Below are positions 1 through 11,626 of a stretch of DNA of 64,000 nucleotides, one piece after another (position 1 is the first letter of the stretch; each line of letters opens with the position of its first letter). The notes beneath the pieces were generated by a model. It had not been told where the DNA came from, searched no databases, and saw nothing but the letters and a program-made list of their open reading frames with translations. The DNA is taken from the NCBI RefSeq assembly GCF_010119195.1, contig NZ_WRXL01000002.1, positions 124,001-188,000 on the forward strand, given 5' to 3'. Made by a program: the position numbers and the translations under genes. This DNA is from Haloarcula salina (GTDB lineage Archaea > Halobacteriota > Halobacteria > Halobacteriales > Haloarculaceae).

Positions 1-743
1 ACGTGGCGGTTCGCGACGACGTTCTCGATGCCCGCACCGCCGTACTGTGCGTAGCCTCTGGCGTACGCGATCGGATAGAGCCGTGCGGTCAGCCGTTGAC
101 TCAGTCCCGGATGCGCGATCGAGGCGTTCACCCTCGTCTGATAGGTCGACACCTGATCGTGGAGCATGAGCGCCGGCGTCGGGACGACGACCGTCGGCGA
201 GACCCGTCGTTCGGCGACGACGCGCCCGTGACGACGGACCGTCAACAGCACGTCGGTGACAGTCGCACGCATCGCTGTTTCGTTCGCACCAGCCCGCGAG
301 ACCGACACACGTCGCTTGGCCGCCCGCAGGTCGCTCGCGTTCGAGACCGGCGGGAGGCTGGCCGCGACGGTCACGTCGCCGCTGCGATACGAGACCCCCT
401 CCAGTCGCTCACTGACCCGCAGGTAGACGCGGATGCGGAGCGCGTCGCGGAACGGTTCGGACTCGTTTAGCACCCGGCCCGCGGGCGTGTCGGCGGGCGT
501 GACGACCGGGTTCGCCGCCGCCCGCCGACCGGCCGTCGCGACGCCGCTCCGGACGGCGCTCTGCGTCTCGGCCGTCGCCCGGTCCAACGCTCGCTCGACG
601 GCTGTGTCGGTCGGCACGGGAGCGCCGACGAACGTCGGGGCCAGCGCGAGACTGCTCACGAGCAGGAGGACGCCCAGCAGCGCGAACGGGACCCGGCCTC
701 GCGTGTCGTCCGCCACGGTGAGTCCCCGTCCGCCGCGCGTCAC
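1..743 (-). CDS. Pilus-operon protein with N-terminal membrane segment (DUF7286-like), partial
   Basis: This is the last gene of the left-hand pilus/secretion-like operon. Its 3' end lies outside the window; about 247 residues are visible. A hydrophobic segment at residues 20-38 follows a short basic stretch, as in pseudopilins or TadE/TadG-type proteins; the remainder is soluble and probably extracytoplasmic. I chose the GTG at 743 because its GTGA overlaps the stop of the upstream gene by 4 bp, like the other junctions here; a second in-frame GTG at 716 is possible. No enzymatic motif is seen. The family label is from memory. The role (minor pilin or assembly factor) is inferred only from topology and operon context. 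Confidence 0.75.
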   Translation of the reverse strand, partial: MTRGGRGLTVADDTRGRVPFALLGVLLLVSSLALAPTFVGAPVPTDTAVERALDRATAETQSAVRSGVATAGRRAAANPVVTPADTPAGRVLNESEPFRDALRIRVYLRVSERLEGVSYRSGDVTVAASLPPVSNASDLRAAKRRVSVSRAGANETAMRATVTDVLLTVRRHGRVVAERRVSPTVVVPTPALMLHDQVSTYQTRVNASIAHPGLSQRLTARLYPIAYARGYAQYGGAGIENVVANRH

Positions 744-1609
744 GGCGACCACGTCCTGACCGTCACGCGAATCTCGCTCGTTCGAACGGCGCGGGCAGCG
801 GCCGCTGGCGAATCGAACCGGGACCGCATATCGGCGCGCAACTGTCGTGCCAGCGCCGCGGTCACCTCCCGGTTCATCGCGACCGTCGACTGGCGCTCGG
901 GGGCCACTTCGACCCCGGTCAGTTCGGCCGCCCGCTCGTAGCGCGTCCGCATCAACACGTCGGCGGGGTAGTCTCCCCGGAGCGCGTACCGCGTCCGGTC
1001 CGCCGGGAACAGGCCGTCGACGACCTCGCGGGCGACGACCGTCGAGACTCCGTCGTACCCCTGCGAGGCCGCCGCCGAGCGCGCCGCCGCGGAGGCGTTC
1101 TGCATCCCGCTCGGAACCGTCACTGTGGCCGCTCGCACGTCCGTGTCAGCAGGTGGCCGGTCCCCGACACGGTATTTGCCGTTAATCGGTGCGCCGGGAT
1201 ACGGCTCCCACGTGACGCGGACCGACGCTTTCCGCCCAGGACTGCCAAGACGGTCGCGTGCGGTCGACCGCATCGCGGACTCGAAGTCTTTGCCTGCGAT
1301 CGAGAGTCGATTTCCTTCGACAGACACGTTGCTCATCGCCGCTTCGCCGAGGAGTTGTGCGACCGTTCCGTGAGCCGTCCGTCGGTGTCGGGTGACGTGC
1401 TCGGGCGGCAAGTGGTCGTCCGTGTCCGGGACGGTCAGATCGTAGGAGACGTGAGCCGTGCTCGCGGCCAGCATCGACGCCTGTTCGGCGGCCGGGTTCG
1501 CCGTCGGTGGGTGCTCGGCGCTCGCGCCGCTCAGAATAACCGTGGCGGCGGCCCCGACGAGCAGGAGGAACACCGTCACGTCGGCGACGGCGCTCGTGGC
1601 TCGCGTCAT
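740..1609 (-). CDS. Pilus-operon protein with N-terminal membrane segment (DUF7284-like)
   Basis: The product is 289 aa. It has a single hydrophobic helix at residues 9-28 directly after a short polar N-terminus, then a soluble, acidic domain with no recognisable catalytic motif. The arrangement resembles a TadE/G-like pseudopilin. A longer upstream reading frame exists, but the ATG at 1609 overlaps the preceding gene's stop in an ATGA, which fits the coupled operon and puts the hydrophobic segment at the N-terminus. Its 3' end overlaps the next gene by 4 bp. Function unknown; a structural part of the predicted pilus or secretion device is inferred. Confidence 0.8.
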   Translation of the reverse strand: MTRATSAVADVTVFLLLVGAAATVILSGASAEHPPTANPAAEQASMLAASTAHVSYDLTVPDTDDHLPPEHVTRHRRTAHGTVAQLLGEAAMSNVSVEGNRLSIAGKDFESAMRSTARDRLGSPGRKASVRVTWEPYPGAPINGKYRVGDRPPADTDVRAATVTVPSGMQNASAAARSAAASQGYDGVSTVVAREVVDGLFPADRTRYALRGDYPADVLMRTRYERAAELTGVEVAPERQSTVAMNREVTAALARQLRADMRSRFDSPAAAARAVRTSEIRVTVRTWSP

Positions 1610-2001
1610 CGCCACACCCGAACTCGGAGCCGCCCGCGACGGACCGTTCCCGGGGCCATACGCACGCTCACGGTCCGTGTGTCGCTGTCGGCCCCGGACG
1701 GCGGTGTCGGTCCGGTACTCCACCGGCCGCCGTCGTCGACGGTGACCGTGACGTTTCCGCGATAGCCCGCCGGAACAGCATCGAGCGCCGCGTTGGTTCG
1801 CGCTGGATCGACGATCCCGGCTGACGAGAGGCGCTGCTCGACGGCGTCCGCGGTCGGCGCGGCGACGGATCGGTCCTGATTCATCGTCCCGAACGCCTCG
1901 TCGAGGACGCCCGCGTACAGCGACAGTCCGACGCCGACGGCGAAGACGGCGACGAGCGCCGCCAGCGGCTCCGTCGTCGCCCTACCCGACGAGCGTGACA
2001 T
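1606..2001 (-). CDS. Small pilin-like membrane protein (DUF7285-like)
   Basis: The product is 131 aa. The N-terminus reads MSRSSGRATTEPLAALVAVF: a basic Gly-Arg leader, then a Thr-Glu-Pro followed by a hydrophobic stretch at residues 13-32. Archaeal pilins share this layout, with a prepilin-peptidase site just before the hydrophobic segment and a Glu near the mature position +5. Cleavage after Gly6 is therefore plausible but unproven. The gene overlaps the upstream gene by 20 bp and the downstream one by 4 bp. Of the four small proteins of the operon, this is the best candidate for a processed pilin subunit. Confidence 0.8.
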   Translation of the reverse strand: MSRSSGRATTEPLAALVAVFAVGVGLSLYAGVLDEAFGTMNQDRSVAAPTADAVEQRLSSAGIVDPARTNAALDAVPAGYRGNVTVTVDDGGRWSTGPTPPSGADSDTRTVSVRMAPGTVRRGRLRVRVWR

Positions 2002-2443
2002 CGACTCCTCCCCAGGCGACGTGACCGATACTCAGCCGTTCGGGTGCAGGCCGCCACGTCTCGTTCCGTGCTCGCGCCCGGTCGAGGGCCGCGCGAAAGG
2101 CGGCGGGCGAGTCGTAGACGCTCGCCGGCGCGGTTCCGTCGAGGACGGTCCGTAGCCGCTCGGAGTCGGCCGCGACCGCGTACTGCGTGAGCCCGGCCTG
2201 TGCCGTCCCGCCGTCGTTGCGGAGCCGGAGCGCTCCGGCTTCGAGCGCCCACTCGTCGGCGAGCAGCCGTCGCTTCTCGACCGACCCGGGCGGACTCGTC
2301 GCCACTTCGTCGATGGTCGCCGCGGTCGCCGTCGCGTTCGGCGGCGCCGTCATCGGCAGTCCGGCGACGACGCCGAGGACGGCGACGCTCACCGCGCTCA
2401 GGCCTACCCAGAGGTACAGCGCGTCGACGTGTGTCTCGAACAT
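1982..2443 (-). CDS. Small pilus-operon membrane protein (DUF7283-like)
   Basis: The product is 153 aa with one transmembrane segment at residues 9-29 and an Ala/Thr-rich soluble domain behind it. It lies 38 bp downstream of the TadC/GspF-like gene and overlaps the next gene by 20 bp, so it is probably co-transcribed. A long reading frame running through this gene from 4246 is an out-of-frame shadow of the TadC gene and is not the start; the ATG at 2443 is the natural start. No known motif is present. A pseudopilin or anchor role is inferred from topology. Confidence 0.78.
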   Translation of the reverse strand: MFETHVDALYLWVGLSAVSVAVLGVVAGLPMTAPPNATATAATIDEVATSPPGSVEKRRLLADEWALEAGALRLRNDGGTAQAGLTQYAVAADSERLRTVLDGTAPASVYDSPAAFRAALDRARARNETWRPAPERLSIGHVAWGGVDVTLVG

Positions 2444-2481
2444 GGACCCTCTTGGTCCCGTATTCGGACTTAAACGTCCGG

Positions 2482-4242
2482 TCAGACCAGCAGTCCCGTC
2501 GCGACGACGGCGGCGAGAAAAGTCGCCGTGGCGGACAGGAGCGCGAGGCCGACTCGGTAGCCGACGAGCGCACGGTCCAGTCCGCGATGGAGCCCGGTCG
2601 ACAGCGCGGTCAGGAGCACGGCCAACACGAGGACGTACCAGCCGACGACGGGGCCCAGCGTCGCGCTCGGGACGGCGCTGAACTGCCCGCCGCCGCCCAT
2701 CGTCCCGGAGAGCGCGACGGTGGCGCCGCCGACCAGCGGCCCGAACAGCGCGGCGGTGTTCGAGAGCGTCTCGGTGATCCGCGCGAGGTCCCGGCGCGTC
2801 TCGCGTTCGACGGCCCGTAGCTCGTCGAGGTGGTCGCCCATCGCCGTGAGCGACTCGCCCGCCGGCGGACCGACGGTCGCTGCCGTCCCGAGCAGCGTCG
2901 CCGCTCGCCGGGCGCGCCTGCTCGGGAGGGTCGAGAGCGCGCCGTGGGGCCCCAGAAACGCGCCCTCGACGCTCGTTCTCAAGTGTTCCTGACGGGCGAC
3001 CGCGGCGTCGACAATTTCCTTGGTGGGGGACCGTGCTTCGGAAGCGGCCTCGGCCAGCGCTGACTCGACCGACTGTCCGGCGTCCAGCCGTCGGCCGACG
3101 GACGAGAGCAGGTCCGGTAGGCCCGCCTCGACGGCGTTGACGCGGTCGCGGACGCGCTTTGCGGGGCGATAGCGAAAGACGAGCGCTGTCCCCGTCCCAG
3201 TTCCGAGCGCACCGACGGGCGTCGCCCACGGCGCGACGAGCGCGGTCGCGAGACCGCCGCCGGCGACCGCGCCAGCGACGCCAGCCATCACCGCCGGCAG
3301 GGCGGTGGCCGGCACGTCCGGATGCGAACGTGGAATCGGCTTCGGCGGGAAGGCGACCGGTCGCCGGCCGAGCAGCCAGGCCGATGCGACTAGCAGCGCC
3401 GCGGGCAAGGCGACACCGTAGAGACCCGCCAGCGCCGGTCCCGTGACGGGGACCCCGGCCGCGGCCGCGGCGGGCAACAGCGACACCATCGCCAGCGGGA
3501 GCAGGACGCCGAACGCGTACAGTCCGGTGGCCGGGCCGCGGAGTGCGGCCGCGAACGCCGCCATCTCGTCCCGCGTCCCGTCGAGAATCTGTCGTCGGGC
3601 GCTGTCGAGGATCGCCGGCCGCTCGCTCGCCTGAGCCGCCGTGGCGCGCTCGACGAGGCCGACGGCGCGTTCGAGCGCCGGAAACGACTCTCCCCACGCG
3701 GCCGCGAACGCACTCAGGCCGCTTTGCGGTGTCCCGGCTGCACGCCGCCGGTGGGTATCGAGTCGGGCTGCCAGCGGTGTGTCGCTCGCACGTGTGGCGA
3801 ACGCGGTCGCCCGCTCCGCGCTCGGCCACAGCGTCGCGCCGAGCACCAGCGCGGAGACGAGCGAGGGGGCCGCTCCGAGTGTCCGGACCCGCTTCGCGTC
3901 GGCCGCGAACGGAACGCCGTAGCGTGCGAGTGCGACGATGCCGAGCGCGCCGGTGATGAGTGCCAGCGAAACGAGCGACGCCAGCGGACCCCCGACGGCG
4001 ACCGCGAGCACTGCGAGTCCGGCGGCACAGCTCGCGATTCCGTAGCCAGCGGTCAGTATCGCCGCTGCAGGCCGCGAGAGCGACAGCGAGCGACACGCCC
4101 GCCGGTAGCCGTCGGGAACCGAGGCGGTATAGGGAACGGTCGCTGCGACTGCGTCCGCGGTCGCTGCGATTGCGGCGAGGAGCGAGCGCGGCGCGCCTCC
4201 GTCCGAGCCCGAAGCTTCGGTCGATCCACTCGCGCCGCTCAT
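2482..4242 (-). CDS. TadC/GspF-type membrane assembly protein, double T2SSF domain
   Basis: This 586-aa polytopic protein is the inner-membrane platform of a type IV pilus/Tad-like machine. Hydrophobic blocks lie at about residues 58-103, 238-294, 308-355 and from 480 to the C-terminus. Two cytosolic T2SSF-like helical domains sit between them (about 150-235 and 375-480), the usual archaeal PilC architecture. The ATG overlaps the stop of the ATPase gene (ATGA), so the ATPase and its membrane partner are translationally coupled. The family is known to transmit ATPase motion to the growing filament or secretion pseudopilus. Which filament this one builds is unknown. Confidence 0.88.
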   Translation of the reverse strand: MSGASGSTEASGSDGGAPRSLLAAIAATADAVAATVPYTASVPDGYRRACRSLSLSRPAAAILTAGYGIASCAAGLAVLAVAVGGPLASLVSLALITGALGIVALARYGVPFAADAKRVRTLGAAPSLVSALVLGATLWPSAERATAFATRASDTPLAARLDTHRRRAAGTPQSGLSAFAAAWGESFPALERAVGLVERATAAQASERPAILDSARRQILDGTRDEMAAFAAALRGPATGLYAFGVLLPLAMVSLLPAAAAAGVPVTGPALAGLYGVALPAALLVASAWLLGRRPVAFPPKPIPRSHPDVPATALPAVMAGVAGAVAGGGLATALVAPWATPVGALGTGTGTALVFRYRPAKRVRDRVNAVEAGLPDLLSSVGRRLDAGQSVESALAEAASEARSPTKEIVDAAVARQEHLRTSVEGAFLGPHGALSTLPSRRARRAATLLGTAATVGPPAGESLTAMGDHLDELRAVERETRRDLARITETLSNTAALFGPLVGGATVALSGTMGGGGQFSAVPSATLGPVVGWYVLVLAVLLTALSTGLHRGLDRALVGYRVGLALLSATATFLAAVVATGLLV

Positions 4243-6122
4243 TCACCTCTCCCGTCCGGAATCGCGTCGGTCACGTCGGAGGCCGTCTCGCCGCCGCCGG
4301 TCGCGCTCCTGGGCGAGCGACGGACCGTCTCCGTCCGCCTCTCGATCGCCGCGAGGACGTCGGCGTAGCGCTCTCCGGGCGCGGTCAGCGATTCGACCAG
4401 CCGGCTGTTACCCCGTTCGAGGCGGCCGGTGGCAGTCGCCGCCGGCCCGTCGCGTTCGTACAGCGACTCGAAGGCGACTCCGTCACCGCGGGCGACGACC
4501 TCCGCGACAGACGCGACGCCGCGGCCGTGCGCTGCCGTCGGTGGCGCGAGCGTGACCACGAGGTCCGTCGCGGCGAACGACCGGACGGGGACGCCGAGAT
4601 CAGATACCAGTCGCTCGCGGATTGCGTCGGGGCCGTCGCCGTGAATCGTGCCGAGGACGGCCCCGTCACCGCCGCCGACGCGCATCGCCTCGTAGAGGAC
4701 GCCGGCCTCCTCACCGCGGACCTCGCCGACGACGAGCGCGCCCTCACCGAGGCGGAGCGCCGTCCGAAGCGCCTCTGTCGCGGTGATCGAGGGGCCGTCG
4801 CCGCTTGCCGTTCGCAGCGGCTGGACGTCCCGGCCGCTGGCCTGAAGCGCCGAGACCGGTAGCTCCGGCGTGTCCTCGATGAGGACTGTCCTGACCTCGC
4901 GGGGGAGCTCCCAGAGCAGCGCGCCGAGCGTCGTCGTCTTGCCGGCCCCGCGGGGACCGGCAACGAGACAGGCTCCGCCCCGCTCGGCCACCACCGAGAG
5001 CAGTCCCGCCACCGCCGCGGGCATGGTCCCGCCGGCGACGAAGTCGCTCAGTCGCCACGCGTTCGCGTCGTGGGCGCGGAACGCGAACGCCAGACCGTCG
5101 CTGACCGGCTCGGTCACGCCGGCGACTCGAATCTGCCTGCCAGCGACCGTCGCCGTCGCGTCCAGCGTCGGGTTCGCTCGCGAAAACGCACGGCCGCTGG
5201 TGCGCCGGAACGTCGATGCGAGCGCGCTGGCCCCGCCCCCGGTCAGCCTCACGTTGGTCCGCATCGTCTCGCCGTCGACGCGGACGCGGAGCGCCGTCTC
5301 GCTGACGGGGGCCGTCGCGAACACGTCCGAGACGCGCTCGTCGGCGAAGACGTCCTCGAGAATCCCGAGACCGGTGGTGTGCTTTTCGACGACCGAGCCG
5401 ACCGCTGCCGCGGTCGCACCGTCGTCGACCGCGTCCCCGGCCGCCGAATACGGGTCACAGCCCCCGTCGACCGCCGTGCTCGCGAGCCGCTCGTACACGG
5501 CCGCCAGCGCCCGCATCGCCGTCGGGCCGAACCGCTGTTCTCGCGGCTCGACGTGGTAGACAGGCAATCGGCCTGACGGCGTGTCGTACCGGCGTACGAC
5601 CGCCTCGGTCGTGAGTGTGCGCCGGTCTCGGAGCGACGACTCCGGCGGGGGCGACGCCGCGACGCGGGCGTCGCTGAGCGTCGGTCCGCGATATGCCGTC
5701 AGCGCCGCCGCGCTGCCGTCGAACCGCTCCGTGGCGACCGCGAGTCCGGTCTCCGCCGCGAGGTCCGCGACCGGTCCCGCGCGCCCCGTCGCTTCCGTGG
5801 CGGCCGCGACCGGGTCGCGTCGGGCCCGCACCGCGAGCCGCTCGTCGACGGCCTGTGCACGCACGGCGAACCGACCGGCGGCGACGAGTACCGCGGCCGC
5901 CCGGTCGACGTAGGCCCTCGTTCGCCCGCAGTGCGTCGTGGTCACGGAGTCGATGTCTCCGCCGTCGAGCGAGCCGATAACCGTCGCTCGGCAGTCGGCG
6001 GACTCGGCGAGGTCACCCTCGCCGGGACAGTCGTCCGCGGCCACAGCGAGCGAATTACCCTCGAAGGACGGACTGCACAGACACCCTTCATCCGCCGTGT
6101 CGCCGCCGAACCACTCACGCAC
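4239..6122 (-). CDS. PilB/TadA-type secretion ATPase
   Basis: This 627-aa hexameric motor ATPase of the type II/IV secretion superfamily carries the Walker A GPRGAGKTTT at residues 389-398, a Walker B-like ALVVGEVRGEEA near 461-472, and a His box GTIHGDG at 491-497. The N-terminal 70 residues carry five cysteines (14, 16, 32, 44, 65), unusual in a haloarchaeal protein, so a metal-binding N-domain is possible. Translation starts at GTG 6122, overlapping the upstream gene by 8 bp; no better in-frame start is seen. It powers the TadC-like protein encoded next. The cargo or filament cannot be read from the sequence. Confidence 0.9.
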   Translation of the reverse strand: MREWFGGDTADEGCLCSPSFEGNSLAVAADDCPGEGDLAESADCRATVIGSLDGGDIDSVTTTHCGRTRAYVDRAAAVLVAAGRFAVRAQAVDERLAVRARRDPVAAATEATGRAGPVADLAAETGLAVATERFDGSAAALTAYRGPTLSDARVAASPPPESSLRDRRTLTTEAVVRRYDTPSGRLPVYHVEPREQRFGPTAMRALAAVYERLASTAVDGGCDPYSAAGDAVDDGATAAAVGSVVEKHTTGLGILEDVFADERVSDVFATAPVSETALRVRVDGETMRTNVRLTGGGASALASTFRRTSGRAFSRANPTLDATATVAGRQIRVAGVTEPVSDGLAFAFRAHDANAWRLSDFVAGGTMPAAVAGLLSVVAERGGACLVAGPRGAGKTTTLGALLWELPREVRTVLIEDTPELPVSALQASGRDVQPLRTASGDGPSITATEALRTALRLGEGALVVGEVRGEEAGVLYEAMRVGGGDGAVLGTIHGDGPDAIRERLVSDLGVPVRSFAATDLVVTLAPPTAAHGRGVASVAEVVARGDGVAFESLYERDGPAATATGRLERGNSRLVESLTAPGERYADVLAAIERRTETVRRSPRSATGGGETASDVTDAIPDGRGE

Positions 6123-6588
6123 GGCTGCGCCCCTCTCCGGACCGCGCCCCCAGGCGTTCGACCGTCAGGACCCGTCGCCCGTCCGCGCGAGTGAGCGCGA
6201 AGACGAGCCGGTGGCTGCCCGGCTCGCTGAGTCGCCTTGTGCCACGCGATGGTCGGACCGGGAGCGGTGCGACTCGCCGGGAGACGGTCCTGTTTTCGAC
6301 CCGCCACGTCGCGACGCCGGTACCGGCCCGACCGTGAAAACGGAGCCAGTCGACGCCGGCGCTCGTGTAGCTCCGAGCGGGCAGCCGAAGTGCAGCCACG
6401 CGCCGCGCGTCGCCCGACGCCGTCGGGTCGTCGGTGGCGACGAGCGCGTCGAGTCGCGACGCGAGTGTCTCCAGTTGCCGCTCCACCGTACCGGTCGCCG
6501 CGTCGGCTCTGGCCGCCGACAGCGCGGGCGCGGAGGCGGCAACGAGCGCCGTCAGTACTGCCACCGAGAGGACGACGCGCAGTATCAC
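6115..6588 (-). CDS. Membrane-anchored pilus-operon protein (DUF7311-like)
   Basis: The product is 157 aa: a hydrophobic segment or signal anchor at residues 4-25, a short helical stretch, then an Arg-rich beta-like region. The start is a GTG whose GTGA overlaps the stop of the coiled-coil gene, so the two are translated in tandem. It precedes the ATPase gene with an 8-bp overlap. No catalytic motif is visible. The conserved pairing with the coiled-coil protein suggests a dedicated accessory pair for the secretion ATPase; this is inference. Confidence 0.78.
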   Translation of the reverse strand: MILRVVLSVAVLTALVAASAPALSAARADAATGTVERQLETLASRLDALVATDDPTASGDARRVAALRLPARSYTSAGVDWLRFHGRAGTGVATWRVENRTVSRRVAPLPVRPSRGTRRLSEPGSHRLVFALTRADGRRVLTVERLGARSGEGRSRA

Positions 6589-7088
6589 AGTCGCTCACGG
6601 ATCCGTTCCAGGACCCCCGGACTCGGTTCCTCGGTCGTCTCGCCGTCGCCACCGTTGGTGATCGCCCCGAAGTCGGTGTGGCCTTCGCCTCCGGGCACTG
6701 GAGGGCCGGAGTGTGAGTCAGCTCTCGTGCCATCGTAGGTCGTTTCGTTCGATCGCTCGGCGGCATCTCCACTCACTACCGGGCGTTCTGCGGGTGCGGG
6801 CTCGTCCAGTCGCGCTTCGAGTCGGTCGACCGCCGCGAGCGCCGCGTTGGCGCGGGACTCCACGTCCTCGTTGACCGCGCGGACGTTCCCGACGTACCCG
6901 CGCAGCGCCTGCGTCGCGGCTTCCAGTTCGGCTGTTCGGGTCTCCAGGTCGTCGACCCGTCCTTCGAGGCCATCGATTCGGTCTTCGAACTCGCCGCGGT
7001 CGGTGACCTCCGGGAACTCCGTCTCGCCGTCGGTGACCGCTCGCTCGACCGCTTGGAGGCGTTCGGCCAGCGTCTCGACGTCTGTCAT
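6585..7088 (-). CDS. Coiled-coil protein, first gene of the pilus-like operon (DUF7310-like)
   Basis: The 167-aa acidic protein has heptad-like repeats over residues 1-95, rich in Leu, Glu and Arg with no helix breakers, followed by a Pro/Gly/Ser-rich low-complexity linker and a short basic helix at the C-terminus ending LERIRERL. There is no transmembrane segment. It is the promoter-proximal gene of the eight-gene operon and probably a cytoplasmic scaffold or regulator of the ATPase. The ATG at 7088 is the only sensible start; a divergent gene begins 86 bp away on the other strand. Confidence 0.8.
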   Translation of the reverse strand: MTDVETLAERLQAVERAVTDGETEFPEVTDRGEFEDRIDGLEGRVDDLETRTAELEAATQALRGYVGNVRAVNEDVESRANAALAAVDRLEARLDEPAPAERPVVSGDAAERSNETTYDGTRADSHSGPPVPGGEGHTDFGAITNGGDGETTEEPSPGVLERIRERL

Positions 7089-7533: not shown

Positions 7534-7644
7534 GTGGGTCGGGCCGCGGACGGCGATTCCGGGGCCGTCACGCCGCGTCGCCGTCGACCACTTTCACCGC
7601 GGTTACGATACCCCTTTAGGCGGGGCTGGCATACGAACGGGCAA

Positions 7645-8943
7645 ATGACACGGGTGATACACACCGGCGACACCCACGTCGGGTACCAGCAGTACAACGT
7701 GCCCGACCGCCGGGCGGACTTCCTCGACGCCTTCCGGCAGGTGATCGCCGACGCCGTCGAAGACGACGTGGACGCCGTCGTCCACGCCGGCGACCTCTTT
7801 CACGACCGTCGGCCGACCCTGACGGACATCATGGGCACGCTCGACGTACTCGAGACGCTCTCCGACGCCGGCATTCCCTTTCTAGCCGTCGTAGGAAATC
7901 ACGAGGCCAAGCGCGACGCGCAGTGGCTCGACCTCTACGAGTCGCTCGGGCTGGCGACGCGCCTCGGGGGCGACCCGACCGTGATCGGCGACACCGCCTT
8001 CTACGGCCTCGATTTCGTTCCCCGATCCCAGCGCGACGACCTCGACTACGACTTCGCCCCCCACGACGCCGACGCCGCGGCGCTCGTCACCCACGGCCTG
8101 TTCCAGCCCTTCGACTACGGCGACTGGGACGCCGCAGAGATCCTGACCGAGGCGTCGGTCGACTTCGACGCGATGCTCCTCGGCGACAACCACGACCCCG
8201 GGAAGCAGCGGGTCGACGATGCGTGGGTCACCTACTGCGGGTCGACCGAGCGCGCGAGCGCCAGCGAACGCGAGGACCGGGGCTACAACATCGTCACCTT
8301 CGACGACGAGGTCCGCATCACTCGCCGCGGCCTCGATACCCGGGAGTTCGTCTTCGTCGACGTGGAACTCGGCCCCGAGGAGGGCGTCGAGCGCGTTCGG
8401 AGCCGCGTCGGCCAGCACGACCTCGAAGAAGCCGTGGTCGTCGTCTCCATCGACGGCGACGGCGAGCCGGTCACCCCCGCGAGCGTCGAATCGTTCGCGC
8501 TGGAGCGCGGCGCGCTCGTGGCCCGGGTCACCGACCACCGTGAGATCGCAGTCGAGGAGGGCGAGACGGAGGTCAGTTTCGCCGACCCCGACGACGCCGT
8601 CACCGAGCGGGTCCGCGATCTCGGACTGAGCGAGGCCGCGCGCGACATCGACGAGACGATCCGCGCCTCGAAAGTGGCCGACGCGAACGTCAAAGACGAG
8701 GTCGAGCGCCGCGTGCGCGAACTCGTCGACGAGGGAGCGGACGCGTTCGGGACCGCCGCGGAGGCCTCCGACGGTGAGACCGACGGAGCGACTGAGAGCG
8801 ACGACCCGTCTGTCGACGTTGACGAGGCGGCCGGTGCGGACGACTCGACTGCCGCGGCCGAGACGCCCCGCAAGTCGACGGGCGACGGCGAGGACGGAGA
8901 GGCACAGACGGACGGCCAGGCGAGCGTGGAGGAGTTCCTGTGA
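7645..8943 (+). CDS. mre11: DNA double-strand break repair nuclease Mre11
   Basis: This 432-aa calcineurin-like Mn-dependent nuclease forms the Mre11-Rad50 complex that processes double-strand breaks. The phosphoesterase motifs are in order: GDTHVGY at residues 8-14, HAGDLFHD at 47-54, GNHEAKRD at 84-91, then THG and GDNHDPG. The last 60 residues are acidic low complexity and end in QASVEEFL, which resembles a PCNA-interacting (PIP) box. The ATG at 7645 was chosen over upstream in-frame codons because it places the first metal motif at the N-terminus, as usual. rad50 starts 13 bp downstream, so the two are one operon. Confidence 0.96.
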   Translation: MTRVIHTGDTHVGYQQYNVPDRRADFLDAFRQVIADAVEDDVDAVVHAGDLFHDRRPTLTDIMGTLDVLETLSDAGIPFLAVVGNHEAKRDAQWLDLYESLGLATRLGGDPTVIGDTAFYGLDFVPRSQRDDLDYDFAPHDADAAALVTHGLFQPFDYGDWDAAEILTEASVDFDAMLLGDNHDPGKQRVDDAWVTYCGSTERASASEREDRGYNIVTFDDEVRITRRGLDTREFVFVDVELGPEEGVERVRSRVGQHDLEEAVVVVSIDGDGEPVTPASVESFALERGALVARVTDHREIAVEEGETEVSFADPDDAVTERVRDLGLSEAARDIDETIRASKVADANVKDEVERRVRELVDEGADAFGTAAEASDGETDGATESDDPSVDVDEAAGADDSTAAAETPRKSTGDGEDGEAQTDGQASVEEFL

Positions 8944-8956
8944 TGGAGGGACACCG

Positions 8957-11626
8957 ATGAGGTTCGAACGCGTCAGGCTGGAGCATTTCAAGTGCTACGA
9001 CGACGCCGACCTGCGACTCGACGGGGGCGTGACCGTCATCCACGGCCTCAACGGCAGCGGGAAGTCCTCGCTGCTCGAAGCCTGCTTCTTCGCGCTGTAC
9101 GGCTCGAAAGCGCTGGACGAGACCCTCGACGACGTGGTCACCATCGGGGCCGACGACTGCACCGTCGAACTGTGGTTCTCCCACGCCGGCGGCGACTACC
9201 ACATCACCAGACGGATCCGCGCGACGGGCGAGCGGGCCCAGACGGCCAAGTGCGTGCTGGAGACGCCCGACGGGAGCTACGAGGGAGCCCGCGACGTGCG
9301 CCGGCGCGTCACCGAACTCCTGCGGATGGACAGCGAGGCGTTCGTCAACTGCGCGTACGTCCGCCAGGGCGAGGTGAACAAGCTCATCAACGCCTCGCCG
9401 GGCGACCGACAGGACATGCTCGACGACCTCCTCCAGTTAGGCAAGCTGGAGGCGTACCGGGAGCGCGCCAGCGACGCCCGCGTCGGCGTGGGTCGCGTTC
9501 GCGACGACAAGCAGGGCGCGCTCTCGCAGCTCGACGAGCAGATCGACGAGAAGGAAGCCAAGGACCTTCACGAGCGGCTGAACGGGCTGGAGACGAAGGA
9601 GAACGAGCTCCAGACGGAGATCGACCACATCGAGGACCAGAAGGCCACTGCCGAGGAGACGCTCTCGCAGGCCCAGTCGGTCCTCGACGAGTACGAACAG
9701 AAGCGCGAGGAGCTGTCCGACCTCGAGTCCGACATCGAGGACCTCCGGGAGACGATCACCGAGGCGGAGACCGAACGGAGCCGGCTCACGGAGCGGATCG
9801 GTGAGCTGAACGACCGCCGCGAGTCGCTGGAGACGGACCTCGACGAGACGGTCGCGGAGACGGAGCTCGACGGCGCGGACCCGTCGGCGGTCGAGCGGCG
9901 ACTCGAGGAACTGCGGTCCCGCGACGACGAACTCCAGTCCCGCATCGAGGACCAGCGCGTCGACGCCAAGGAGCACAGCAGCACGGCCGAGGCCCTCGCG
10001 GAGAACGCCGCGGACCTCGAATCGCGGGCCGAGCGCAAGCGCGAGGAGGCGAGCGACCTGGCGGCGGATCTGGAGGACGCGCGCGAGACCATCGCCGCCC
10101 GCCGCGAGCAACTCGGCGACATCGACGAGCAGATTGCCGAACTCGAATCGCGGTTCGAGGACGCGCCAGCGGACCGCGACGGCGTCGGGGCGTACGAGCA
10201 GTCGGTCGCCGACGACCTCGACGACGCCCGCCAGCGGGTCACGGAACTGGAGACGAAGCTGAAGAGCGCCCGCGAGTCGCTCGCGGAGGCCGAAGACCTC
10301 CTCGACGCCGGCAAGTGTCCCGAGTGCGGCCAGGACGTGGGCGAGTCCCCGCACGTCGACTCCATCGAGGACGACCGCGAGCGCGCCGCGGATCTCGAAG
10401 CGACCCTCGACGAGGCCCGCGACCGGGTCGAGGACCTGGAAACGAAGCACGAGCGCGCTCGGGACCTCGCCGACGCGGCGGACGAACTGGACACGCTGGA
10501 GAGCAACCGCGCGAACGTCGTTCAGCTCGTCGAGGAGAAGGAGGCCGGACTGGCGGACGACGAGGCGCGCGCCGAGCGACTCCGCGAGGAGGCGGCGGAG
10601 CACGAAGACGAGGCGTCGTCGAAACGCGAGGAGGCGACCGAGGCGCGGGAGCGAGCGGACGACTGCCGGTCGGTCGTCGCCGAGTGCAACCAGGAGCGCC
10701 AGCGCGTCAAGGAGGCGATCCAGCGCCTGGAACGGATCGAGGACCTGCTGGACGACGTCGAGGACTGCGAGGCCGAGATCGAGCGCCTGCGCGAGAAACG
10801 CAGCCAGCAGGACGAACTGAACGACCAGCGACGCGACCGCCTCGCGGAGAAGCGCGAGCGCAGACAGGACCTCTCGGAGTCCTTCGACGAGGACCGCATC
10901 GAGGAGGCCCGCGGCGAGAAACAGCGCGCCGAGCAGTACATCGAGCAGGCAACCGACGCGCTCGCGACGAAGCGCGAGAAACGCGACGAGCTTCAGAACG
11001 CCATCGGTGCCGTCAGGAACGAAATCGAGGAACTGGAGTCACTTCGCGAGCGCCGCGAGGAGCTGAAAACGACGCTCGAACGGCTCGAAACGCTGTACGA
11101 TGAGACCGAACAGCTCCAGGAGATGTACGGCTCGCTCCGGGCGGAGCTCCGCCAGCGCAACGTCGAGACGCTCGAACGGATGCTCAACGAGACGTTCGAT
11201 CTGGTGTACCAGAACGACTCGTACTCCCACATCGAACTGGACGGCGAGTACCGGCTGACGGTGTACCAGAAGGACGGCGAGCCCCTGGAGCCCGAACAGC
11301 TCTCCGGCGGCGAGCGGGCGCTGTTCAATCTCAGCCTCCGGTGTGCCATCTATCGCCTGCTGGCGGAGGGTATCGAGGGCGCGGCCCCGATGCCGCCGCT
11401 CATCCTCGACGAGCCGACGGTGTTCCTCGACTCGGGCCACGTCACGCAGTTGCTCGACGTGATCGAGTACATGCGCGACGAGGTCGGCGTCGAGCAGATC
11501 CTCGTGGTCAGCCACGACGAGGAACTGGTCGGGGCCGCAGACGACCTCGTGCGCGTCGAGAAGGACGCGACCACCAACCGTTCGCGCGTCGAGCGCGTCG
11601 AGACGACCGTCGCGGAACTGGCCTGA
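8957..11626 (+). CDS. rad50: DNA double-strand break repair ATPase Rad50
   Basis: This 889-aa SMC-like ATPase is the partner of Mre11. The N-terminal Walker A GLNGSGKS is at residues 30-37. Long antiparallel coiled coils flank a zinc hook, CPEC, at residues 454-457. The C-terminal half-site has the ABC signature LSGGERALFNLSL followed by the Walker B LILDEPTVFLD. Length and symmetry (hook in the exact middle) are typical. The start ATG at 8957 gives the canonical short N-terminus; the ATG at 8943 is out of frame. The family tethers DNA ends and gates Mre11 nuclease activity by ATP. Confidence 0.97.
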   Translation: MRFERVRLEHFKCYDDADLRLDGGVTVIHGLNGSGKSSLLEACFFALYGSKALDETLDDVVTIGADDCTVELWFSHAGGDYHITRRIRATGERAQTAKCVLETPDGSYEGARDVRRRVTELLRMDSEAFVNCAYVRQGEVNKLINASPGDRQDMLDDLLQLGKLEAYRERASDARVGVGRVRDDKQGALSQLDEQIDEKEAKDLHERLNGLETKENELQTEIDHIEDQKATAEETLSQAQSVLDEYEQKREELSDLESDIEDLRETITEAETERSRLTERIGELNDRRESLETDLDETVAETELDGADPSAVERRLEELRSRDDELQSRIEDQRVDAKEHSSTAEALAENAADLESRAERKREEASDLAADLEDARETIAARREQLGDIDEQIAELESRFEDAPADRDGVGAYEQSVADDLDDARQRVTELETKLKSARESLAEAEDLLDAGKCPECGQDVGESPHVDSIEDDRERAADLEATLDEARDRVEDLETKHERARDLADAADELDTLESNRANVVQLVEEKEAGLADDEARAERLREEAAEHEDEASSKREEATEARERADDCRSVVAECNQERQRVKEAIQRLERIEDLLDDVEDCEAEIERLREKRSQQDELNDQRRDRLAEKRERRQDLSESFDEDRIEEARGEKQRAEQYIEQATDALATKREKRDELQNAIGAVRNEIEELESLRERREELKTTLERLETLYDETEQLQEMYGSLRAELRQRNVETLERMLNETFDLVYQNDSYSHIELDGEYRLTVYQKDGEPLEPEQLSGGERALFNLSLRCAIYRLLAEGIEGAAPMPPLILDEPTVFLDSGHVTQLLDVIEYMRDEVGVEQILVVSHDEELVGAADDLVRVEKDATTNRSRVERVETTVAELA

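Follow-up and report, generated by a model that had tools for sequence, protein, structure and literature searches.

Subclade 4F of the archaeal type IV pili is characterized, in the main text of the survey that catalogued it (Makarova, Koonin, Albers 2016, PMC4858521), by an assembly ATPase whose N-terminus is rich in Cys, a cytoplasmic coiled-coil protein that only halobacterial loci encode (arCOG07564), a large protein resembling S-layer proteins and a pilin of its own (arCOG02981) whose gene mostly stands alone. Pili of this type have never been studied by experiment. Here we analyse an eight-gene operon that matches this subclade, located at one end of a 64,000-nucleotide stretch of the 3.79-Mb genome of Haloarcula salina (contig NZ_WRXL01000002.1, positions 124001-188000, G000:C7:124001-188000; hereinafter the window). 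We assign the operon to 4F because its separate ATPase clade, Cys-rich ATPase N-terminus, coiled-coil partner and pilin agree with the published description; the assignment was made by matching features and not by named reference sequences or arCOG membership. An earlier interpretation of the window from the letters alone (the sequence-only reading) had presented the operon as an undescribed machine, a claim that is not supported, because its features match a class already listed in that survey. In our view, the operon is likely to be the assembly operon of a 4F-type pilus that has a dedicated pilin and a HerA-type ATPase, both encoded elsewhere in the genome, in addition to minor or tip pilins.

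Layout of the operon

The eight open reading frames (ORFs) recognized in the sequence-only reading are all present on the minus strand; the operon starts at position 7088 and extends beyond the window start.

6585..7088, minus strand: DUF7310, coiled-coil cytoplasmic protein, 167 amino acids (aa) (Pfam PF23991, E 1.4e-32)
6115..6588, minus strand: DUF7311, 157 aa, single N-terminal hydrophobic helix (PF23993, E 3.3e-31)
4239..6122, minus strand: VirB11/GspE-family assembly ATPase, 627 aa (PF00437, 70.1 bits, over the cut-off)
2482..4242, minus strand: TadC/PilC-like platform protein, 586 aa (weak T2SSF match over residues 382-487), whose gene immediately follows that of the ATPase in the loci read
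1982..2443, minus strand: DUF7283, 153 aa counted from the conserved ATG (2443) (PF23954, E 5.4e-43)
1606..2001, minus strand: DUF7285, 131 aa, minor pilin candidate (PF23956, E 1.3e-38)
740..1609, minus strand: DUF7284, 289 aa from the ATG at 1609 (PF23955, E 8.8e-87)
1..752, minus strand: DUF7286, 5' quarter inside the window (PF23957, E 0 over 1-1000 of 1000)

The six small or unnamed genes, which had been deemed unrecognizable, all match Pfam DUF families in profile searches (DUF7310, DUF7311, DUF7283, DUF7285, DUF7284 and DUF7286; E 1e-31 to 1e-100); a search of a literature library found no mention of these family numbers. The last gene was previously taken to encode 250 aa, but the window stops inside it, so that its true length could not be seen in the sequence-only reading: the complete DUF7286 gene encodes 1004 aa (L006:9738-12752, minus strand), runs on to G000:C7:121738 outside the window and ends the operon, the next gene being DUF5791. 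The statement that all but one of the junctions overlap holds, with a 38-bp gap between TadC and DUF7283 if the latter begins at the conserved ATG 2443. That these overlaps are mostly of 4 bp is true for three or four of the seven junctions: the overlap is 4 bp at DUF7310/DUF7311, ATPase/TadC and DUF7285/DUF7284, 8 bp at DUF7311/ATPase, 20 bp at DUF7283/DUF7285, and 4 or 13 bp at DUF7284/DUF7286, depending on the choice of GTG.

Conservation and co-inheritance in haloarchaea

Scanning of the named genomes with the DUF7286 alignment yielded 80 loci, and gene order was read in 81 haloarchaeal loci using profiles built from the window proteins. The exact order 7310-7311-ATPase-TadC-7283-7285-7284-7286 was found in 50 of the 81, and most of the remaining loci are contig ends, split frames or double matches with the same order. 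Thus, the survey of haloarchaeal gene order, a check suggested in the sequence-only reading, revealed an almost invariant arrangement. In the Halorussus loci, the operon is in two pieces, with 7310/7311 inverted. Presence and absence of the genes are also tightly linked. Of 242 haloarchaeal genomes, 183 contain both DUF7286 and DUF7310 (the latter scored at E<1e-9), 55 contain neither, 4 contain only DUF7286 and none contains only DUF7310 (Fisher p about 3e-50, the 242 genomes not being independent). The coiled-coil partner proposed from the sequence is supported; it is DUF7310, which never occurs without DUF7286. Furthermore, each of eight genera holds both complete species and species without any of the four markers of the operon, pilin and HerA-type ATPase. 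The preserved order across genera and the joint presence and absence show that the operon is more than a chance combination. An assembly of unrelated genes by chance, the outcome against which the sequence-only reading had set its proposal, is vanishingly improbable, because dozens of genera share the gene order and joint loss is seen in eight genera.

Several individual loci and genomes show features of their own. In three loci from Halorussus and relatives (L078, L085, L090), DUF7311/7310 remain with ATPase/TadC but are inverted. In G180 (L164 and L166), the operon is in two pieces, with DUF7310 still with ATPase/TadC and DUF7311 in the pilin block beside HerA. Three loci (L155, L156, L157) have the permuted order ATPase-TadC-7285-7284-7286-7283-7310 and encode a DUF7286 protein of approximately 1160 aa. 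The ATPase ORF is fragmented into multiple frames in Haladaptatus litoreus and Halegenticoccus tardaugens (L051:5590-6430; L054:4581-6448), through either decay or sequencing error. Genome G012 contains DUF7286 and the pilin, with the cognate ATPase, DUF7310 and HerA absent, and possibly carries a remnant. Methanosarcina acetivorans, a control genome, has a DUF7286 match over the cut-off, whereas DUF7286 is missing from the ATPase loci read in related methanogens (L149-L152).

The assembly ATPase, the platform protein and DUF7310

The ATPase retains an intact Walker A motif (GPRGAGKTT) and VGEVRGEE box, both conserved in orthologs, and its relatives in the PDB are FlaI, CpaF and GspE; the match to NCBIfam TIGR03819 is below the cut-off. 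The N-terminal domain contains four invariant cysteines (14, 16, 32 and 44; 100% in 66 orthologs) that possibly form a metal site. Outside Halobacteria, orthologs were found in two families of methanogen-like genomes (E 1e-65 to 1e-73, the next best match being 1e-25), and their N-terminal domain is likewise Cys-rich, with more cysteines than in the haloarchaeal proteins. Two of these genomes are probably those of Methanocella arvoryzae and M. paludicola. In the phylogenetic tree, the ATPase of the window together with its haloarchaeal and methanogen orthologs is split from all other sampled archaeal T2SSE proteins, including its own paralogs, with 100/100 support. The other T2SSE proteins of this genome are those of the PilB3 type, the archaellum (L177) and the PilB4 type, which also agree with the clades named in the 2016 survey, and a PIN-fused one. 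The latter, a PIN-T2SSE fusion with a KH match (L179:5747-7618; G000:C11:201747-203618), is the fifth T2SSE match of the genome and is not a pilus ATPase.

The claim of a double TadC-type protein finds limited backing: there is a single T2SSF match below the threshold (20.3 bits vs a cut-off of 25.2, E 5.6e-4), and hydropathy averaged over 70 orthologs reveals six hydrophobic segments in two groups of three. Collectively, the VirB11-type ATPase, the platform and a prepilin motif (see below) support the pilus- or secretion-like character inferred previously. DUF7310, the sole coiled-coil gene of the operon, has a conserved core, R..eLEAAtQALRGYvG.vRaVN..VErRAdaALA in the ortholog alignment, and is distributed as described for arCOG07564, of which it is a candidate member.

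A pilin and a HerA-core ATPase encoded in trans

In Methanocella-type loci, the same ATPase-TadC pair is followed by a pilin gene, and a HerA-like ATPase, an A24 prepilin peptidase and a DUF7311 relative are encoded nearby (the latter, weakly similar with E 1e-5 in L148, lies beside the Peptidase_A24 gene). With the methanogen pilin as the query (E 3.5e-13), a homolog was detected in the window genome as a stand-alone gene (G000:C13:44652-45092) of the Pfam family DUF7382, with the size of a major pilin and an Ig-like domain. Its N-terminus contains DERA/IEGLPIRLVIALVVGVA, with the class III signal DERA/IEGLPIRL (here and below, the slash marks the predicted cleavage site); a search of the window genome with an exact DNA pattern for this N-terminus gave no match, the pattern being too strict. 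This pilin behaves as described for arCOG02981, that is, it is stand-alone, lies beside TadC in Methanocella-type loci and co-occurs with the operon.

Adjoining the pilin gene divergently is a gene for a HerA-core ATPase of 370 aa (G000:C13:45168-46277) that is 39% identical to the Methanocella protein and possesses an intact Walker A motif (GKRGSGKTYT) and a DEAH-type Walker B motif. By sequence, its relatives are HerA helicases, CedD and TrwB-type coupling proteins, and no convincing transmembrane segment was found in it. The pilin is present in 185 of the 242 genomes, in 183 of them with the operon (pilin and DUF7286 together in 183, DUF7286 alone in 4, pilin alone in 2, neither in 53), and the HerA ortholog in 175, in 174 of them with the operon. 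The full set of four markers occurs in 173 genomes, and 53 lack every one of them. In a sister arrangement (subtype B), both genes are located directly upstream of the operon, the pilin leftwards, followed rightwards by HerA-7310-7311-ATPase-TadC and so on; according to the locus coordinates, 23 genomes have HerA immediately before DUF7310 in the same orientation. Hence the HerA-core ATPase and the DUF7382 pilin have been gained and lost together with the operon.

The small single-helix proteins

Five proteins, DUF7311, DUF7283, DUF7285, DUF7284 and DUF7286, each have a single hydrophobic helix near the N-terminus; in Pfam searches, the small proteins match no TadE, TadF, TadG or Flp. The prepilin-peptidase site noticed in the 131-aa protein (DUF7285) is real and conserved, with the class III signal R[AG]/[QT]xEP[LI]AALVAV, and this family shows a weak relation (E 0.015) to DUF7287, the pilin-like family of the PilB4-type locus of the same genome. 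The N-terminus of DUF7284 contains RA/TSAVADVTVFLLL (RA/T.. in Haloarcula-like genera), with an invariant Asp within the hydrophobic segment. The N-terminus of DUF7286 is RG/RVPFALLGVLLL in the window genome and R[AG]/RVPFALVGVLLL across the alignment, with no acidic residue, and its C-terminus contains DxDxDG-type loops. DUF7283 starts with MF[DE]xxxDxxYxWxGL followed by a soluble domain and is pilin-like in form. Of the suggestion of four pseudopilin-like proteins, the part concerning the N-termini stands, while the folds are unproven. AlphaFold predicts an alpha/beta extracellular domain for DUF7284 (pLDDT 88) and gives a model of a DUF7286 ortholog with pLDDT 83. The matches of the DUF7284 model to ribosomal protein uS3 (Z about 6) reflect a common arrangement and not kinship. 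The genome encodes one prepilin peptidase, a stand-alone PibD (single PF06847 match).

Predicted mechanism and alternatives

Under the 4F pilus interpretation, the VirB11-type ATPase would rotate at the cytoplasmic face of the TadC-like platform and thereby drive prepilins, cleaved by the single stand-alone PibD, from the membrane into the filament. The DUF7382 pilin would be the main structural subunit, whereas DUF7285, DUF7284, DUF7283, DUF7286 and probably DUF7311 would form a minor-pilin or tip complex. DUF7286 is a candidate for a large tip or adhesin-like component and, with its 1004 aa, the best candidate for the outermost tip, because its pilin-like N-terminus lacks the acidic residue found in DUF7285 and DUF7284. 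DUF7310 might be a cytoplasmic cofactor that tunes the ATPase, and the HerA-core ATPase, as the tenth part of the machine, might either pump DNA or serve assembly.

Several observations weigh against this interpretation. The filament is a prediction from the genes, and the equation with 4F is by matching features. An R[AG] cleavage site is missing from DUF7283 and, in haloarchaea, from DUF7311; no pilin, pseudopilin or other solved fold in the PDB was matched by the models of DUF7284 and DUF7286 (Foldseek/VIA-align); and the five small families show no solid mutual homology (best hhalign E 1e-3, probability 17%). Some features of the operon would suit a secretion pseudopilus, in which the small proteins form a short piston like GspG-K of type II secretion and export proteins instead of building a long fibre at the surface: there are several single-helix proteins, one of them very large and, like GspK, devoid of the acidic residue, and the operon itself includes no PilA-type gene. 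However, a conserved, dedicated pilin of major-pilin size with an Ig-like domain co-occurs with the operon and sits beside the platform gene in methanogens, and no substrate gene is consistently linked, so we consider a pseudopilus very unlikely.

The HerA-core ATPase raises the alternative of a DNA-transfer pilus, which would draw cells or DNA to one another while this enzyme pumps DNA through the pilus or alongside it, like VirB4/VirD4 in conjugation or CedB/CedD in the Ced system of crenarchaea. Its intact motifs and its relatives, its strict co-inheritance and its position directly upstream of DUF7310 in 23 genomes all fit such a role, as does the mre11-rad50 pair, which lies beside the operon in two arrangements unrelated to each other; herA and rad50 are likewise found in the Ted loci of Thermoproteales (PMC9905601). 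Nevertheless, no membrane segment of the protein is convincing, its length leaves no room for an N-terminal domain like that of VirB4, HerA-core ATPases also serve outside DNA transport, and mre11-rad50 is near the operon in only 21 of the 81 loci. A channel for DNA is not apparent either: ComEC (PF03772) is over the cut-off in 2 of the 242 genomes and absent from the window genome, and was rejected as a partner, and no VirB6-like channel was noticed in the loci. On balance, a DNA-transfer pilus appears rather unlikely. It is similarly doubtful that haloarchaea and Methanocella-type methanogens share a DNA-exchange apparatus with a HerA-type pump that is neither of the ComEC type nor of the VirB4/Ced type; if they do, such a pilus could explain in part why haloarchaea exchange genes so extensively.

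Neighbouring genes

DUF5791, an epimerase gene and a DHH gene keep their place downstream of the operon in most loci. They were rejected as operon parts, DUF5791 being present in 239 of the 242 genomes, with or without the operon. In the window, mre11 and rad50 occupy 7642-11626; the pair adjoins the operon upstream in Haloarcula-like genera and lies a few kilobases downstream in Halorubrum (loci L037-L047 and L093-L114), and, given its presence near the operon in a minority of loci, it was rejected as a part of the system. An FtsZ/CetZ gene was reported beside 4F loci in 2016; a motif scan detected none in the loci read.

Implications

A pilus class that existed on paper, with mostly unnamed parts, becomes a defined ten-gene machine in about three quarters of the sampled haloarchaeal species, including Haloferax, where genetics is easy; in Haloferax volcanii, DUF7286 is present. 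The co-inheritance of the HerA-core ATPase poses a concrete question, namely whether the pilus moves DNA. Targets for structural work are DUF7284 and DUF7286, whose folds are unmatched, and the ATPase with its invariant cysteines.

Comparison with known systems

The PilB1-C1, PilB3-C3 and PilB4-C4 systems of Haloferax volcanii similarly combine a PilB-PilC pair with PibD-processed pilins but belong to other ATPase clades and use other pilin families. The H. salina genome has loci of the PilB3 and PilB4 types as well, the latter with the pilin families DUF7287/7288/7289/7266/7261, and no DUF7310, DUF7311 or HerA was seen in them. The genome's archaellum locus is separate (L177), and the operon encodes no ArlF/G/H. 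Bacterial Tad pili (TadA/CpaF, TadB/C, TadE/F/G) are similar in the ATPase (resemblance to the TadA family, below the TIGR03819 cut-off, and to CpaF in the PDB), the TadC-like platform and several TadE/G-shaped minor parts, whereas here there is one TadC gene and no TadZ or secretin. The crenarchaeal Ups/Ced and Ted systems likewise pair a type IV-type pilus with an ATPase of the HerA/VirB4 family within the same genome, but the HerA-core ATPase described here appears to be soluble and is of insufficient length for the N-terminal domain of VirB4; CedA- or CedA1-like homologs were not noticed in the loci read, in which no dedicated search for them was made.

The closest likeness is to 4F as presented in the main text of PMC4858521: a VirB11 ATPase with a Cys-rich N-terminus, TadC, a coiled-coil protein restricted to haloarchaea, a large extracellular protein and a mostly stand-alone dedicated pilin, in Halobacteria and Methanocella-like genomes. 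That main text mentions no HerA-core ATPase, strict co-inheritance or two gene-order subtypes, and it suggests disulfides for the cysteines, whereas four invariant cysteines in a cytoplasmic protein would fit a metal site better. Compared with the same text, what is new here is the true last gene of the operon, the two trans-encoded parts with their co-inheritance, the gene-order subtypes and the invariance of the ATPase cysteines.

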